Origin: a virus
Strand: one strand, 5' to 3'
Virus record (IMG/VR): IMGVR_UViG_3300020183_000334
Coordinates: 1-29,869 of that record
Length of the DNA: 29,869 nt
This document shows, piece after piece, positions 6,504 to 20,138 of the stretch; the stretch's first letter is position 1, and each line of letters starts with the position of its first letter. A program made the translations under genes and the position numbers. The notes beneath the pieces were generated by a model, which was not told where the DNA came from, ran no database searches, and was given only the letters and a program-made list of their open reading frames with translations.

Positions 6504-7970
6504 TTAGAACTTAAAGGTTGTTTGCAAAATTCCTCCCCAATTGGAAGAGTTACCAACAAGACGTTGGTTGTCACTACCGTAGATGATAGCAGGAGTGACG
6601 CTGATGTTATCAGACACTTGATACTTATAGAAGATCTCAAGCATCGTGGACTTCTCAAGGTTCTCGCCAGTAGGTGCCTGACCGATAGCAACACCAGCAG
6701 AGTTACCGTCAACAAACACATCATCCCAAGTCAGACCAGCAAACCAGGATTGACTGTTGGTGGCATCACTAGGAGTACCACTTACAGTATTCCAACCATA
6801 ACCTGCTGAGATCGAAGGAGCCCAACCAGATTGAGTGGGTTGCCAGTAAGCGTTGATAGCATAACCGTTAGAAGTTTGACCTGGAACCAGAGTGCCAGAA
6901 GCACCATTCAGACCGTTGTATGTGCGAACACGAGTGCCTTCGGTGCCATAACGATAACCAAATGCGATACCGTAGTTGTCACCACGATAACCGATCTGGG
7001 CTAGAGTGTTGAGAGCACCAGAGCGATCAAACTCACCTGTAGAACTATCAGCACCGTTTTGTGCCACATAGTTCACACCAGCAATCAGACCTTTGTTTCC
7101 GTACTGAATACCAAAACCTGAACCAACTGCCTTGTTATACACACCAGGAGCACCAGCTACTTGGAAGAAATCAAGGATCTTGGATTCATATGCTGAAGGA
7201 ATCCAAGCAATCTCAGTGTTACGAACCAGAGCACCAGCAGTAAGAGTGGTGCTACCGTTGAACACAGGGAACTGATAATACAGACGATCGATAACTACGT
7301 TATTACCGTTTTCACCTGTGGTATTGTCTGCTTTATCCAGTTTGAAGATAGACGAACTGGAACCGAAAGGATTGCTACTGAAGTTAGAAGAACGCAAACG
7401 AGTACGGAGCAAATCGGCACCAGTAAAAGAAGTATCCAGATTCAGACGAAGATCATAGTTAAATGCAGTGTGGATAATATCACCTTCTTTAGTTTGATAG
7501 TCATCCACACCACCAATCACAAAGTTTGCTTCACCACGCAGTTTAGTAGTGGTAGAGAACTGTTGTGCTTCGAGAGTAGTAACTTGTGCTTCCAGACCAT
7601 CAACACGACCCTTCAGAACTGCCAGTTCAGCAGCAAACTCTTTAGTAAGACGCTTGAGTTCATCGGTAACTTCAGTCACACGATCCAGACAAGCATTCAG
7701 AAGTGCTGCTGCCTCATAACGAGTCAAAGCACGACCACCACGGAAGGTGCCGTTGGGATAACCAGCAACGCAACCATAACGCTCTACAAGTTGCGAGAGT
7801 GCTTGATATGCCCAGTCAGTAGGTTGGACATCAGAAAATTGAGTGACGCTTGTAACCTGTTCGGAAGAATACTGGTTGACCCCATTCATATTAAGGTCTG
7901 CGGCCATCGCAGCAGGTGCAACCATTCCCAGAGCAACAGGTGCAAGCATCAGTTGTTGAAAGAATTTCAT
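6504..7970 (-). CDS. Cyanobacterial outer-membrane porin (SLH + OprB/SomA type)
   Basis: 488 residues from the ATG at 7968-7970. An upstream in-frame TTG at 8000 is unlikely because it would precede the signal peptide. Order: signal peptide 1-23 (ending APAAMA), SLH domain at about 44-100 (FSDVQPTDWAYQALSQLVER, TRYEAAALLNACLD) that binds the cell wall, a coiled coil at about 96-137, then an OprB-type beta-barrel of about 340 residues ending in Phe (TTFKF), the usual outer-membrane insertion signal. This is the layout of SomA/SomB porins of marine Synechococcus and related cyanobacteria. Base composition looks less AT-rich than the neighbours and a consensus-like promoter precedes it, both consistent with host origin. 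It may alter permeability or phage-receptor display; that is inference. Confidence 0.93.
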   Translation of the reverse strand: MKFFQQLMLAPVALGMVAPAAMAADLNMNGVNQYSSEQVTSVTQFSDVQPTDWAYQALSQLVERYGCVAGYPNGTFRGGRALTRYEAAALLNACLDRVTEVTDELKRLTKEFAAELAVLKGRVDGLEAQVTTLEAQQFSTTTKLRGEANFVIGGVDDYQTKEGDIIHTAFNYDLRLNLDTSFTGADLLRTRLRSSNFSSNPFGSSSSIFKLDKADNTTGENGNNVVIDRLYYQFPVFNGSTTLTAGALVRNTEIAWIPSAYESKILDFFQVAGAPGVYNKAVGSGFGIQYGNKGLIAGVNYVAQNGADSSTGEFDRSGALNTLAQIGYRGDNYGIAFGYRYGTEGTRVRTYNGLNGASGTLVPGQTSNGYAINAYWQPTQSGWAPSISAGYGWNTVSGTPSDATNSQSWFAGLTWDDVFVDGNSAGVAIGQAPTGENLEKSTMLEIFYKYQVSDNISVTPAIIYGSDNQRLVGNSSNWGGILQTTFKF

Positions 7971-15004: not shown

Positions 15005-15798
15005 ATCTTAATCCACCTCTCAGGAACTAAATCTTTTACATCATTCTGTTCACTCAGTGGAGGACCAAACCATCTATTTGGAGCAATAACTTTTTTACTA
15101 TCAGATAACCAAGCTCCCCACCAACTAAAAGAACTATTTGCAATAATGTGATAATCACAAAGAGTCATTAAGCACATATCAAATAGATTACTATTACCTT
15201 GAGAAACATAGAATCTATCGGATGAAAAAATATTCTGACTAAGAGCCCACTTAGGATCATCTGTAAAGATGATCACTGGAATATTAGAATCGACCATAGA
15301 CAGTGCTTGTTGATAATACTCCAGAGGACAACAACCGTGCCAAGGTTGATTTACATAATCACCTCTTCTTACATGAAGAGAGATAACCTTCTCACTATCA
15401 ATTGAGTTTCGATACTCTTTTGCTACAGAAAGAATATTATCTTTGAAGGTAAAATCTTTTTTTACCTCATCAGAAATATCTTGAAAATATTTCTCTGTTT
15501 GAAAGTATCCAAATAGATCTACATCATCTGGACACTTTTCATAAAGTTCCTGGTTAAAGTGGAAGTGACCTTCCTCTACTCTTTTATCTGTTTGATTGAC
15601 TCGAATATTTTCTTTTGGAAGACTAGAAAGTTCAAATCCTTCAAAGAGTTGATGATCGTGCCATGGATCATTAAAATCACTCGGAGGAATAGTAAACTCA
15701 TATCCATGTTTGGTTGATATGGATTTTAATGTTGCGTACTGGAACATCTGGTTTCCAAGTCTTCCATGATGTCCTAGAAGATTAAAACTAATAGTCAT
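15001..15798 (-). CDS. GT11 alpha-1,2-fucosyltransferase-like enzyme
   Basis: 265 residues with the GT11 signature set: LLGHHGRLGNQMFQYATLKS at 7-26, SLHVRRGDYV (the H-x-R-R-x-D donor motif), FTDDPKWAL, and ANSSFSWWGAWLSDSKKVIAPNRWF near the C-terminus. GT11 enzymes move L-fucose from GDP-L-fucose to a galactose. The window has no recognisable GDP-fucose synthase, but the gene directly upstream, overlapping by 4 bases, is a GDP-mannose 3,5-epimerase making GDP-L-galactose, a close structural analogue. L-galactose transfer is therefore a good alternative; that is inference. Confidence 0.9.
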   Translation of the reverse strand: MTISFNLLGHHGRLGNQMFQYATLKSISTKHGYEFTIPPSDFNDPWHDHQLFEGFELSSLPKENIRVNQTDKRVEEGHFHFNQELYEKCPDDVDLFGYFQTEKYFQDISDEVKKDFTFKDNILSVAKEYRNSIDSEKVISLHVRRGDYVNQPWHGCCPLEYYQQALSMVDSNIPVIIFTDDPKWALSQNIFSSDRFYVSQGNSNLFDMCLMTLCDYHIIANSSFSWWGAWLSDSKKVIAPNRWFGPPLSEQNDVKDLVPERWIKI

Positions 15799-16841
15799 TT
15801 TTGAAGTTGTTCCTTAATCCAGAAATAAGTTTTACGAATACCTTCTTCGAGGGTCTGTTCATAATCCCAACCCAACTTCTCACGAATCAGATCATTATTG
15901 GAGTTACGACCACGAACACCAAGAGGTGCATCAAGTTTATGTTGACGTTTAACAGGAACTCCAGCAACCTTAGAAACAGTATCGACAAGTTGATTGATAG
16001 TTACCATTTCCTCAGATCCAATATTGACTGGACCGATGAAGTTAGAATCCATCATACGACGAGTTGCTTCAATACATTCATCAATGAAGAGGAAGGAACG
16101 TGTCTGTTCACCATCACCCCATACTTCGATTGTTCCACCAACCTCAGGAAGTTCTGCTACTTTCCTACAAATAGCCGCAGGTGCTTTTTCCCTACCACCA
16201 GTCCAAGTTCCTTCTGGTCCGAAAATATTGTGGTATCGAGCAACACGTACAGGAATACCATAGTTGCGATGATAAGCAAAATACAGACGTTCTGAAAAGA
16301 GTTTTTCCCAACCATATTCGGAATCTGGGTTAGCAGGATATGCGGACTCTTCACGACAATCGGGATTGTCTGGATCAAGTTGATTGTGCTTTGGATACAT
16401 GCAAGCAGATCCAGAATAGAAGATCTTGGTTACATTCTTACCAAGAAAATCATTAAACTTTCTTACAGACTCAAGAACATTCAGGTTAATTGACACTGAG
16501 TTGTGCATAATATCTGCATCATTTTCTCCAGTAAATACGAAACCTGCTCCACCCATATCAGCAGCAAACTGATATACTTCATCAAATGCCTGAAGATATC
16601 GTGATGGAACAAAGTTATAGAAGTTACCACGATCACCTTTGTATTGAATGACTCTTTCTACAAAGGCAACATCTCTCAGGTCTCCAATAATAAACTCATT
16701 TGCTTCAGTCTTTGAGAACTCAGGATACTTGAGATCCACACCGCGAACCCAATAACCTTCTGCTCGCAGTCTTTTGACCATGTGACTTCCAATAAAACCA
16801 CCAGCACCAAGCACAAGTGCTTTCTTTACATATTGACTCAT
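15795..16841 (-). CDS. GDP-mannose 3,5-epimerase-like (extended SDR)
   Basis: 348 residues. NAD motif LGAGGFIGSHMVKRLRAEGY at 11-30. Motifs follow the plant GDP-mannose 3,5-epimerase (GME) closely: FAADMGGAGFV at 92-102, SGSACMYPK with the acid/base Cys147, YGWEK (Tyr176, Lys180), RYHNIFGPEGTW, GGREKAPAAICRK with Lys219, VWGDGEQTRSFLFIDECIEA, VNIGSEEM and GVRGRNSNN. GME converts GDP-D-mannose to GDP-L-galactose or GDP-L-gulose in the cytoplasm. All catalytic residues I know of are kept. It is the first gene of the eleven-gene glycan operon, 28 bases after the promoter's -10 box, and overlaps the GT11 gene by 4 bases. Confidence 0.9.
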   Translation of the reverse strand: MSQYVKKALVLGAGGFIGSHMVKRLRAEGYWVRGVDLKYPEFSKTEANEFIIGDLRDVAFVERVIQYKGDRGNFYNFVPSRYLQAFDEVYQFAADMGGAGFVFTGENDADIMHNSVSINLNVLESVRKFNDFLGKNVTKIFYSGSACMYPKHNQLDPDNPDCREESAYPANPDSEYGWEKLFSERLYFAYHRNYGIPVRVARYHNIFGPEGTWTGGREKAPAAICRKVAELPEVGGTIEVWGDGEQTRSFLFIDECIEATRRMMDSNFIGPVNIGSEEMVTINQLVDTVSKVAGVPVKRQHKLDAPLGVRGRNSNNDLIREKLGWDYEQTLEEGIRKTYFWIKEQLQK

Positions 16842-16904: not shown

Positions 16905-17018
16905 CTATAAACTCAGGCTCGCCACCAATTCTTTGACTGGAAATTGGAAACCAGGCGGGAGTAAGATCCCATCCGCACCACTTGCTCTTGAGAGAAGCAA
17001 GAAACTCATAGGGGTCAT
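16905..17018 (-). CDS. Possible 37-residue small protein
   Basis: ATG at 17016-17018 with a GGTGGAG ribosome-binding site 6 bases upstream, and a stop immediately before the terminator hairpin. The product has a hydrophobic start (MTPMSFLLLSRASG) and Pro/Gly-rich middle (ILLPPGFQF). Position between gene and terminator supports it. Another frame over the same bases, without a start codon, gives a Trp/Cys-rich sequence (SKWCGWDLTPAWFPI) that also looks protein-like, so the true coding frame is uncertain. Confidence 0.4.
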   Translation of the reverse strand: MTPMSFLLLSRASGADGILLPPGFQFPVKELVASLSL

Positions 17019-17883: not shown

Positions 17884-17909
17884 GGTGGACAGAGGTGTTT
17901 CTGTCTTAT

Positions 17910-17981
17910 GCTCGTTGTCAGGATTGAACTGACCTCTGCCGATTTATGAGATCGGTGCTTTCACCAGATAGCTAAACGAGC
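17910..17981 (-). tRNA. tRNA with CAT anticodon (Met or Ile2)
   Basis: A 72-base cloverleaf with acceptor GCTCGTT/AACGAGC, anticodon stem CCGAT/ATCGG, loop CTCATAA and a canonical T-loop (TTCAATC). The CAT anticodon may be elongator Met, or Ile after lysidine modification; the sequence alone does not separate them. Last tRNA of the cluster in transcription order. Confidence 0.92.
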
Positions 17982-17984
17982 AAG

Positions 17985-18063: not shown

Positions 18064-18291
18064 TCACGAACCTTCTTCGTGGTCGGTGTGTATTCGTATT
18101 ATATCCTCACTCACACCACAATCCTCAAAGACCTGTACCACTTCCTTATATGGCACCATAACTGCGTTACCGTGCTCACTGGTTATGATAAATGATTCTC
18201 CTCGTTCTACTCTGTTCATAAGATTGTCAAAGTCAGATTGAAACTCTTCTACAGTGAATGATTGAAGTTCAGAAATTTCTTGCATTTTCAT
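18064..18291 (-). CDS. Phd/YefM-type antitoxin, orphan
   Basis: 75 residues with the Phd/YefM N-terminal DNA-binding fold: SFTVEEFQSDFDNLMNRVER then GESFIITSEHGNAVMVPYKE. The C-terminal tail (VSEDIIRIHTDHEEGS) is where such antitoxins contact their toxin. No toxin gene of the Doc or YoeB type is seen beside it; both flanks are tRNA genes. It could neutralise a host toxin (an anti-abortive-infection role) or act as a repressor in the tRNA cluster. A second ATG two codons in is an alternative start. The role is inference. Confidence 0.82.
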   Translation of the reverse strand: MKMQEISELQSFTVEEFQSDFDNLMNRVERGESFIITSEHGNAVMVPYKEVVQVFEDCGVSEDIIRIHTDHEEGS

Positions 18292-19333: not shown

Positions 19334-19339
19334 AAGTAT

Positions 19340-19411
19340 GCCCGATACAGGTAACGCTCCCGTCGATGCCTGAGTGTAAATCAGGTCCCTTCACTTGCTG
19401 GGTCATCGGGC
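19340..19411 (-). tRNA. tRNA-like cloverleaf, TAC anticodon (Val), non-canonical loops
   Basis: Exactly 72 bases: acceptor GCCCGAT/ATCGGGC, D-stem CCC/GGG with loop AGCAAGTGAA, anticodon stem CCTGA/TCAGG with loop TTTACAC, 5-base variable loop, T-stem ACGGG/CCTGT with loop AGCGTTA. All stems pair, but the D-loop has no GG and the T-loop has no TTC. The stop codon of the HNH gene (TGA) is part of the anticodon stem. It may be a functional tRNA-Val with an altered elbow or a decaying one. Confidence 0.7.
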
Positions 19412-19890
19412 AATTGAATAACTCCTGCGTGTATCATTCTATGACAATTAGAGCATAAAAGAACACATTTGTCAAGTTCTTGTTTGAGTTTGTCCCATCC
19501 AATACTGTTACGAGTTAAATTAAATTCTTTAATTGATGGGTCTAAATGATGAAAATCTAATGCAGAATAATGTTTATCGAATCCACAACAAATACATTTT
19601 CCACCTTTGTATTCTAACATTTTATGTTTAGTGATTACAAATTGTTTATTTCTATATTTGTTAAGACAAGACTTACAAGCCCATCTTTTTTTAGAATCAT
19701 AAGTATTTTCTGTAGTAAGTTTTACATTACAAAACTTACAATTATCCACATATTTTGGTGGTTTATAAGTTGTAAGATTATATTTTCTTAACCAGTGTCT
19801 TACGGCACCATTACTTTTATTGACAATTTTAGAAATTTGCCTAATGCTTTTTCCGTCAGCAACCAGTTGAGTTAAATAATCTTTTTCCAC
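19381..19890 (-). CDS. HNH homing endonuclease in the tRNA cluster
   Basis: 169 residues with a GTG start; no ATG is available in frame. A helix-turn-helix-like N-terminus (YLTQLVADGKSIRQISKIVN, GAVRHWLRKYNL) is followed by a Cys4 zinc motif (CKFCNVKL...WACKSCLNKY) and the HNH core: GGKCICCGFDKHYSALDFHH, then CVLLCSNCHRMIHAG. It nicks or cuts a specific DNA site to spread itself. It sits between two unusual tRNA genes and its last 31 bases overlap the Val-like tRNA. An exact TATAAATA box 23 bases upstream implies late expression. Confidence 0.9.
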   Translation of the reverse strand: MEKDYLTQLVADGKSIRQISKIVNKSNGAVRHWLRKYNLTTYKPPKYVDNCKFCNVKLTTENTYDSKKRWACKSCLNKYRNKQFVITKHKMLEYKGGKCICCGFDKHYSALDFHHLDPSIKEFNLTRNSIGWDKLKQELDKCVLLCSNCHRMIHAGVIQLPDDPASEGT

Positions 19891-19912
19891 AATACTAACA
19901 CAGTTCTTATAT

Positions 19913-19920
19913 TATTTATA
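19913..19920 (-). promoter_or_regulatory. T4-type late promoter (exact TATAAATA) of the HNH gene
   Basis: Minus-strand TATAAATA between the Asn-like tRNA and the HNH GTG start. Confidence 0.65.
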
Positions 19921-19938
19921 TTAGAAGTGTGTTAGAAC

Positions 19939-20010
19939 TCCCATCGTAGGTACTGCCCCTACCAATCTCCGATTAACAGTCGGGCCCGTTCGCTTGCTCG
20001 GTCGATGGGA
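19939..20010 (-). tRNA. tRNA-like cloverleaf, GTT anticodon (Asn), non-canonical loops
   Basis: Also exactly 72 bases: acceptor TCCCATC/GATGGGA, D-stem CCG/CGG with loop AGCAAGCGAA, anticodon stem CCCGA/TCGGA (one C-A mismatch) with loop CTGTTAA, 5-base variable loop, T-stem GTAGG/CCTAC with loop GGCAGTA. The anticodon arm is typical of tRNA-Asn. D- and T-loops lack GG and TTC, just as in the Val-like gene, and the D-loop differs from it at one position only. Confidence 0.72.
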
Positions 20011-20066: not shown

Positions 20067-20138
20067 ACCTCTGTCTGGGAATCGAACCCAGTTTCCAACT
20101 CCCTTGTCGGGGTGTCCTTACCAATGGACTACCAGAGG
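20067..20138 (-). tRNA. tRNA with irregular anticodon arm (possibly Val, GAC)
   Basis: Acceptor CCTCTGG/ACAGAGG (one mismatch), D-arm GTCC/GGAC with a normal GG loop, T-stem CTGGG/CCCAG with canonical TTCGATT loop. The anticodon arm does not fit the 5-bp/7-base rule: the best fold is CCC/GGG around a 6-base loop CGACAA, as if the T before GAC were lost. It could be a tRNA-Val(GAC) missing U33, a pseudogene, or a sequencing error. Confidence 0.65.

Follow-up and report, generated by a model that had tools for sequence, protein, structure and literature searches.

Two overlooked phage tRNA genes with a probable alternative elbow pair, A18-G55

How might a tRNA elbow form when the D-loop and the T-loop each lack one of the bases that usually meet there, and are the elements that raise this question tRNA genes at all? 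The canonical elbow comprises G18-Psi55, G19-C56, U54-A58, and R15-Y48, as set out in sections of PMC4810234 and PMC7912444, where G18-Psi55 is treated as universal. The DNA analyzed here (the window) is a 29,869-base IMG/VR virus record of the cyanophage type, with Synechococcus phage matches for its ribonucleotide reductase subunits and primase. ARAGORN found seven ordinary tRNAs in it, all on the minus strand, as are two further cloverleaves, Val(TAC) and Asn(GTT). Neither of these was reported by ARAGORN, and neither was matched by the Rfam tRNA model at E ≤ 1. In transcription order along the minus strand, the locus reads tRNA-Ser, Asn(GTT) at 20010-19939, an HNH gene at 19890-19381, Val(TAC) at 19411-19340, and the next ARAGORN tRNA. 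The relevant features are as follows.

17908..17982, minus strand: ordinary tRNA-Met(CAT), from ARAGORN and the covariance model
19340..19411, minus strand: tRNA-Val(TAC) with putative rewired elbow, 83.7 bits with covariance model R1
19352..19358, minus strand: Val T-loop AGCGTTA, read as A54 G55 C56 G57 T58 T59 A60
19376..19378, minus strand: Val anticodon TAC
19381..19890, minus strand: predicted HNH endonuclease ORF, 169 aa, GTG start, PHROGs phrog_2255 HNH, E 1.7e-31
19390..19399, minus strand: Val D-loop AGCAAGTGAA, which holds A18 G19
19939..20010, minus strand: tRNA-Asn(GTT) with putative rewired elbow, 88.3 bits with covariance model R1
19951..19957, minus strand: Asn T-loop GGCAGTA, read as G54 G55 C56 A57 G58 T59 A60
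19975..19977, minus strand: Asn anticodon GTT
19989..19998, minus strand: Asn D-loop AGCAAGCGAA, read as A13 G14 C15 A16 A18 G19 C20 G A A22

Each of the two genes is exactly 72 nt long, and their segment lengths are identical: an acceptor stem of 7 bp, the linker GA, a 3-bp D-stem with a 10-nt D-loop, and 1 nt, followed by a 5-bp anticodon stem with a 7-nt loop, a 5-nt variable loop, and a 5-bp T-stem with a 7-nt T-loop. The acceptor strands are TCCCATC/GATGGGA for Asn and GCCCGAT/ATCGGGC for Val, the discriminators are G at 19938 and A at 19339, respectively, and CCA is unencoded in both. Both anticodon loops (Val TTTACAC, Asn CTGTTAA) have 7 nt with Y32, U33, and a purine at 37. The flaws in the stems are a C.A at 27-43 in Asn and a G-T in the T-stem of Val. 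An earlier sequence-only reading had described two 72-base cloverleaves with these segment lengths, near-perfect stems, standard anticodon loops, and the D- and T-loops given above, with the strand unstated; folding bore out all of these points on the minus strand. Hairpins form on the plus strand as well, but only the minus strand yields a standard anticodon loop, and the plus-strand reading was rejected. The D-loop numbering was assigned by comparison with canonical tRNAs and is supported by covariation in relatives. With this numbering, the elbow of both genes holds A18-G55 rather than G18-U55, and G19-C56 is present.

The D-arm pattern occurs in the window as two exact matches and one with mismatches, against 0.33 expected at ≤2 mismatches. 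A chance cloverleaf was rejected on the basis of a scan of 137 kb of shuffled sequence, which gave no cloverleaf matches, and of covariation in relatives. BLAST found the Val element, unannotated and at 86% identity, in six Synechococcus phage records, and Val relatives are carried by S-N03 and MA10. An Asn element lies within a tRNA cluster of Microcystis phage Mwe-JY26, where it is unannotated, and another in phage B23 is labeled pseudo (tRNA-Pseudo-GTT). Scanning IMG/VR with a sub-family pattern that fixed A18, G55, and C56 returned at least 119 stretches. Of 129 pattern rows, 3 were truncated at a contig end and the stem filter removed 4, of which three (in L017, L090, and L123) score with the model as true members of 73 nt. 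In 122 of the 126 full-length matches listed, which include the window genes and two phage loci, both the acceptor stem and the T stem are present, and these 122 include 50 distinct sequences. By anticodon, these 122 were Asn (71), Val (42), Cys (8), and CAT (1), among the matches listed; one His member was found later, bringing the distinct sequences to 51. In IMG/VR, the exact scaffold with NWR anticodons occurred in one contig, the His one, and with anticodons having C or G at 35 and a base other than A at 36 it occurred in none. The Pro form of the exact scaffold was seen only in cellular genomes.

In these 51 distinct relatives, 96.8% of cells were paired, and 20 of the 23 listed pairs (tertiary pairs included) had changed on both sides, among the matches listed. 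The covariation score of the cloverleaf was 0.729, compared with at most 0.103 for slid structures and at most 0.173 for shuffles (51 sequences, matches listed). T33 and A37 were invariant in all 51, both being fixed by the search pattern. Loss of the cloverleaf in relatives had been named beforehand as grounds for refuting the tRNA reading; we looked for it and found the pairing kept in the 51 relatives. A covariance search had also been suggested; under the resulting model, members score 66 to 90 bits (truncated copies counted) and ordinary tRNAs at most 51 bits, and a tRNA-Met in L057 falls between them at 57.9 bits. ARAGORN reported 0 of 20 members in 14 loci and 1 of 13 in species-genome loci. 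Because the cloverleaf is kept by compensatory change in 51 relatives and the discriminators are those expected, the Val and Asn cloverleaves are, on comparative sequence evidence, real tRNA genes overlooked by ARAGORN and Rfam.

Two details of the sub-family may be added. The 27-43 pair is nonstandard in 31 of the 51 members (matches listed); no other pair in the stems is broken often. At 7316-7383, L017 carries a CAT tRNA whose D-arm (GATCAAGTGATC) is very short yet retains AAGTGA; its T-loop is AGCGTTA and its CCA is encoded.

Several scans bear on the elbow itself. With the scaffold fixed and positions 18 and 55 left free, the 80 IMG/VR loci listed of about 120 contained 32 distinct cloverleaves, of which 28 were A-G, 4 were G-U, and none was mixed; the 26 non-cloverleaf matches from the same 80 loci were scattered at 18 and 55. 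Over all loci collected, the split was 51 A-G and 6 G-U with none mixed among 57, a count that includes loci drawn with A18 and G55 fixed (43 of 171 matches failed the cloverleaf filter). For otherwise canonical tRNAs (U8, A14, a 7-nt D-loop, U54, and A58), fixing G55 and freeing 18 gave A18 in 106 of 106 cloverleaves among the matches listed (L126-L245, all 120 loci). Conversely, fixing A18 and freeing 55 gave G55 in 68 of 69 among the 80 loci listed of about 120, and in 106 of 108 over all loci collected. Cloverleaf filtering removed 15 of 121 and 20 of 128 matches from these two sets, which overlap heavily and consist mostly of CAT tRNAs, with ten other anticodons occurring. We prefer the figures from the loci listed for each scan, since the all-loci counts draw partly on scans in which 18, 55, or both were preset. 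Related sequences are included in all of these counts and inflate them.

The same alternation appears across whole loci. Among 1377 distinct cloverleaves from the 334 loci listed, with D-loops classed by a simple string rule, 966 of 976 with U55C56 carried GG and 352 of 367 with G55C56 carried AG or AGG. For the 1236 bystander tRNAs matched by no pattern, classed by the same rule on the loci listed, the figures were 965 of 973 and 215 of 229; the other 14 of these 229 were without AG by this rule. Exceptions with G55 carried U18 or C18 and, once, apparently G18. G55C56 was found with 42 anticodons covering all 20 amino acids, on the loci listed. G19-C56 was present in 51 of 51 sub-family members, where the pattern fixed both bases. 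The window tRNA-Met(CAT) has a scaffold similar to that of the rewired pair (10-nt D-loop ATCTGGTGAA, C15, and G48) but keeps canonical G18G19 and T55C56, and its relative in L057 shows the A18/G55 switch. Because both pairs occur when the positions are left free and mixtures are nearly absent, we regard it as almost certain, insofar as sequence comparison can tell, that position 18-55 alternates between G-U and A-G while G19-C56 is kept. The D-/T-loop covariation in relatives that had been proposed as a check is thus found at 18-55.

The literature that we searched held no description of A18-G55 tRNAs, and artificial ones may be in print. The engineering papers of Zagryadskaya, Steinberg, and colleagues are reportedly the likeliest to have met such pairs. 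Rewired tRNAs, having neither U55 nor G18, could carry neither Psi55 nor Gm18, modifications described in part of PMC7912444. According to a section of PMC4810234, RNase P, the L1 stalk, L5, and T-boxes make use of the face that G19-C56 exposes.

Other elbow changes were seen in passing. T-loops with U55U56 accompany a D-loop GA (G18 A19) in 11 of 13 distinct tRNAs, found in L028, L039, L051, L048, L123, and others, so that G19-C56 can become A19-U56. The array Arg(TCG) tRNAs of L262 and L265 (T-loop CGAAAGT, D-loop AATGTATA) may show U19-A56.

Signs of charging were sought in the discriminator base. Among the matches listed, it was G in 71 of 71 Asn members, A in 42 of 42 Val members, and T in 8 of 8 Cys members. 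A73 is the discriminator for Val. Bacterial Asn requires G73 and Cys requires U73, according to part of PMC9976931. Over all amino acids, 313 of 367 rewired tRNAs on the loci listed had the majority canonical discriminator of their amino acid. CCA was encoded in 24 of the 122 members among the matches listed.

We also asked what accompanies rewired genes in phage tRNA sets, taking the first-scan IMG/VR loci with at least six canonical tRNAs; these loci are fragments and are partly related. Canonical Asn(GTT) stood beside rewired Asn in 2 of 40 loci, compared with 18 of 31 loci without the rewired gene (Fisher 1.4e-6), and canonical Val stood beside rewired Val in 0 of 12 loci, compared with 37 of 62 (Fisher 1.7e-4). 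Both comparisons are for the matches listed, and their Fisher values are only indicative, as kinship among sequences overstates independence. The scarcity of loci with both forms shows statistically that the rewired gene takes the slot of the ordinary isoacceptor in phages. It is very probable, on the genomic evidence, that rewired tRNAs are translating tRNAs, and we hold the alternative elbow and the translating role, taken together, with similarly high confidence.

The tight sub-family pattern was also found at 15 loci of species genomes, 2 of which (L260 and L269) are chance matches. The other 13 comprise one Microbacteriaceae MAG (L274), one Myxococcales MAG, and eleven labeled Verrucomicrobiota. 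L274, with 24 ARAGORN tRNAs, resembles in our reading a phage tRNA cluster. Several arrays are rewired almost throughout: 19 of 20 tRNAs in L290, 15 of 17 in L289 (one of the two others being a lone match on the other strand, probably by chance), 9 of 9 in L288, 14 of 16 in L292, 12 of 13 in L291, 8 of 9 in L293, and 22 of 23 in L301. Other arrays hold few rewired tRNAs (2 of 5 in L261, 2 of 7 in L267, and 2 of 5 in L271). In two of the array genomes (Verrucomicrobiota G003 and G005), the housekeeping tRNAs were canonical in 32 of 32 distinct sequences from 30 loci sampled, so the rewired array is supernumerary, beside a canonical housekeeping set. Rewired arrays are sporadic, as the model matched 6 of 240 sampled Verrucomicrobiota (E ≤ 1e-12, strict filters).

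Some of these arrays adjoin RNA-repair genes. In L289 (Prosthecobacter), the array is directly followed by TROVE, RlaP, and RtcB, and in L290 (UBA2429), RlaP and RtcB come after the array. RtcB or RlaP lay within 10 kb of the array in 7 of 17 genomes (G002, G005, G012, G111, G202, G211, and G243), and neither was found within that distance in the other 10. No repair gene was present among the 10 neighboring ORFs of L291, L292, and L293, and no RtcB was found in 18 phage records. Phage contigs of IMG/VR can be nearly or wholly rewired locally (18 of 18 in L186, 15 of 15 in L231, and 10 of 11 in L131), and at most phage loci only a small share of the tRNAs is rewired. Mycobacterial, Curtobacterium, and Ruminococcus plasmid tRNA arrays had the canonical elbow, which indicates that A18-G55 is not general to tRNA arrays; 2 of 13 tRNAs were rewired in a cyanobacterial (Calothrix) plasmid array. 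In the plasmid-array controls, 83 of 86 pattern-free cloverleaves had a canonical T-loop.

What could have favored such an elbow? We propose that the phage Asn and Val tRNAs would fold into the usual L with A18-G55 as the inner pair and G19-C56 kept as the outer pair. Linked substitutions would complete the core (A-U or G-G at 54-58, a covarying 16-59, C15-G48, and G8/G14), and the rewired genes stand in the phage set where ordinary tRNAs for Asn and Val would be. Most likely, an enzyme that recognizes or attacks a G18-U55 elbow would pass over tRNAs with the altered one, and translation could continue on them while host tRNAs are inactivated. The elbow itself is probably under selection, because many tRNA lineages per array share the two-site change and housekeeping tRNAs do not; the RNA-repair genes that adjoin some arrays also speak for an adaptive reading. 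RtcB operons respond to damaged tRNAs (in part of PMC7790460), and a role for phage tRNAs as replacements of host tRNAs under attack has been proposed (in parts of PMC10264068 and PMC7824862). Escape from nucleases or modification, which the sequence-only reading had suggested, is made more plausible, though not proven, by the RNA-repair neighborhood of the related bacterial arrays. As the reason for the altered elbow, we put forward evasion or stress back-up tentatively, as somewhat short of an even bet.

A broader account may be offered with a little more reserve still. It would see a second natural class of bacterial-type tRNA with an A18-G55 elbow for all 20 amino acids, kept by bacteria as back-up sets often beside RNA-repair genes and carried by phages singly or as whole sets. 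This class would have evolved because a widespread tRNA-inactivating effector reads or attacks G18-U55, with the rewired tRNAs sustaining translation. Neutral compensatory drift is a fair rival that we consider possible to much the same degree: it shares the structure and differs in the reason, A18-G55 being equally good and fixed by chance in mobile tRNAs free of selection for host modification. The pair is clearly interchangeable, mixed arrays exist, and most phage loci have a small rewired share, all of which suits drift. It is harder to reconcile with the near-total switch in L290, L288, L292, and the phage loci L186 and L231, and with the need for two linked changes per tRNA when none of the 32 housekeeping tRNAs sampled from two of the array genomes has switched.

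We think it improbable that these are uncharged tRNA mimics, serving as decoys or sponges to tie up a nuclease or sensor that targets tRNA. The genes are phage-borne, and their unusual elbow bases could favor or block particular binders; yet their anticodon loops and discriminators obey the rules of each amino acid, and a decoy would have no need to replace the ordinary isoacceptor in phage sets.

Beyond 18-55, the core contacts show further substitutions. On the loci listed, position 54-58 of the rewired class is T-A in 200, G-G in 75, A-T in 56, C-A in 15, and other combinations in 21 (n = 367). In the window's sub-family, 54-58 is A-U or G-G, and the positions of 54-58 and 16-59 covary; among the matches listed, 16-59 is A-T in 46, T-A in 13, C-C in 4, and T-T in 1 (n = 64). 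G8 and G48 are each present in 65 of 65 sub-family matches listed, and G14 and C15 are invariant, being fixed by the definition used. The sub-family thus lacks both U8-A14 and R15-Y48, the latter being kept in 89 of 90 of the wider rewired class on the loci listed. We infer that C15-G48 (a reversed Levitt pair) would replace G15-C48 and that G8-G14 would replace U8-A14, a pairing that can only be inferred because these positions do not vary in the sub-family.

The sequence-only reading had placed the altered contact elsewhere, with the GC of the D-loop pairing with the GC of the T-loop as a two-base-pair kissing contact in place of 18-55 and 19-56. Inter-loop helices have occasionally been met in selected suppressor tRNAs, and GC is present in both loops of every one of the 51 sub-family members among the matches listed. 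We nevertheless judge this contact very improbable. Conservation of G14 and C15 goes along with that of G8 and G48, in keeping with C15-G48 and G8-G14 contacts, and G14C15 follows the scaffold rather than the T-loop, since G18-U55 members of the same scaffold keep G14C15 though their T-loop has ATC. In other scaffolds with G55C56, GC stands 5' of A18 in only 49 of 303 tRNAs (245 are without it and 9 are without AG), and A18G19 is nearly universal, on the loci listed. The sub-family of phage tRNAs with an altered D-/T-loop contact is real, as had been supposed, and the contact is in all likelihood A18-G55 rather than GC:GC. Decayed tRNA pseudogenes, an idea that rejection by standard finders and the pseudo label of the phage B23 relative might prompt, are refuted by the stem covariation and discriminator conservation over many contigs, leaving this reading a negligible chance.

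Compared with canonical tRNA, the rewired genes share the cloverleaf, the 7-nt T-loop, G53-C61, G19-C56, purine 57, and a covarying 54-58. They differ in A18-G55, in having no U55 for pseudouridylation and no G18 for methylation, and, in the window's sub-family, in G8, C15-G48, A-U or G-G at 54-58, and a covarying 16-59. As in tRNA-Pyl and the other unusual natural tRNAs covered in part of PMC7609411, the G18G19/T-Psi-C signature is missing; by the same source, the tRNA-Pyl of Desulfitobacterium (D. hafniense) likewise has G8, and positions 16 and 59 are in contact in tRNA-Sec too (C16:C59 in E. coli). Unlike these tRNAs, the rewired ones have normal arms except for a 3-bp D-stem with a 10-nt loop, and they have ordinary sense anticodons and G19-C56; across the wider class, they cover all 20 amino acids. 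Where tRNA-Pyl is described there with a 5-nt D-loop, an elongated anticodon stem, and a small variable arm, the window genes have a 10-nt D-loop, a 5-bp anticodon stem, and a 5-nt variable loop.

The bacterial rewired arrays resemble the Anabaena trn operon in being supernumerary beside a housekeeping set. According to part of PMC10272220, that silent tRNA operon and rtcB share the repressor TrcR; control of rtcB by TrcR may be set beside the adjacency of rtcB or rlaP to 7 of the 17 rewired arrays. Unlike such stress-induced arrays, the window is a phage with seven plus two tRNAs. A further likeness is to the phage tRNAs that escape anticodon nucleases through anticodon-loop changes, proposed in part of PMC10264068 to stand in for attacked host tRNAs, their own altered sequences sparing them; here the change lies in the elbow, not in the anticodon loop.

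If the proposed reading is right, a compensated elbow across 20 amino acids and in nearly complete second sets would represent another stable solution of the tRNA fold, and it would point to a selective agent acting on the elbow. It would also explain part of the phage tRNA complement missed by annotation, provide natural parts for tRNA engineering, and make testable why phages carry tRNAs, by way of the question whether these tRNAs outlast the destruction of host tRNAs.

Homing endonucleases are found within phage tRNA clusters, T4 SegB being an example. The gene between the two cloverleaves was correctly named HNH by the sequence-only reading, given its PHROGs match (phrog_2255), and a Pfam search of the ORF at 19381..19890 gave no HNH match. 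The ORF runs into the Val tRNA gene at its 3' end, with 31 bases in common. The Val tRNA of MA10 is directly followed by an HNH gene, and HNH genes also occur in plasmid tRNA arrays and after RtcB in L289. Like SegB, the endonuclease gene lies between or beside tRNA genes with variable synteny; unlike SegB, it is a putative homing gene of HNH type. It is probably a free-standing homing-type gene, apart from tRNA function, and we read it as a mobile gene that favors tRNA clusters and has no part in the elbow story.

Other elements of the window's minus strand may be mentioned. At 20067-20138, ARAGORN reports a tRNA whose anticodon has only two bases (ca), meaning that its anticodon loop is short. 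A small Phd-like antitoxin gene (18064-18291; PHROG 375, E 1.9e-13) sits within the tRNA cluster next to tRNA-Ile. A strong wcaG RNA element (16911-17009; Rfam RF01761, 101 bits) lies just upstream of an epimerase-like ORF (15795-16841), assigned as such by its sequence.
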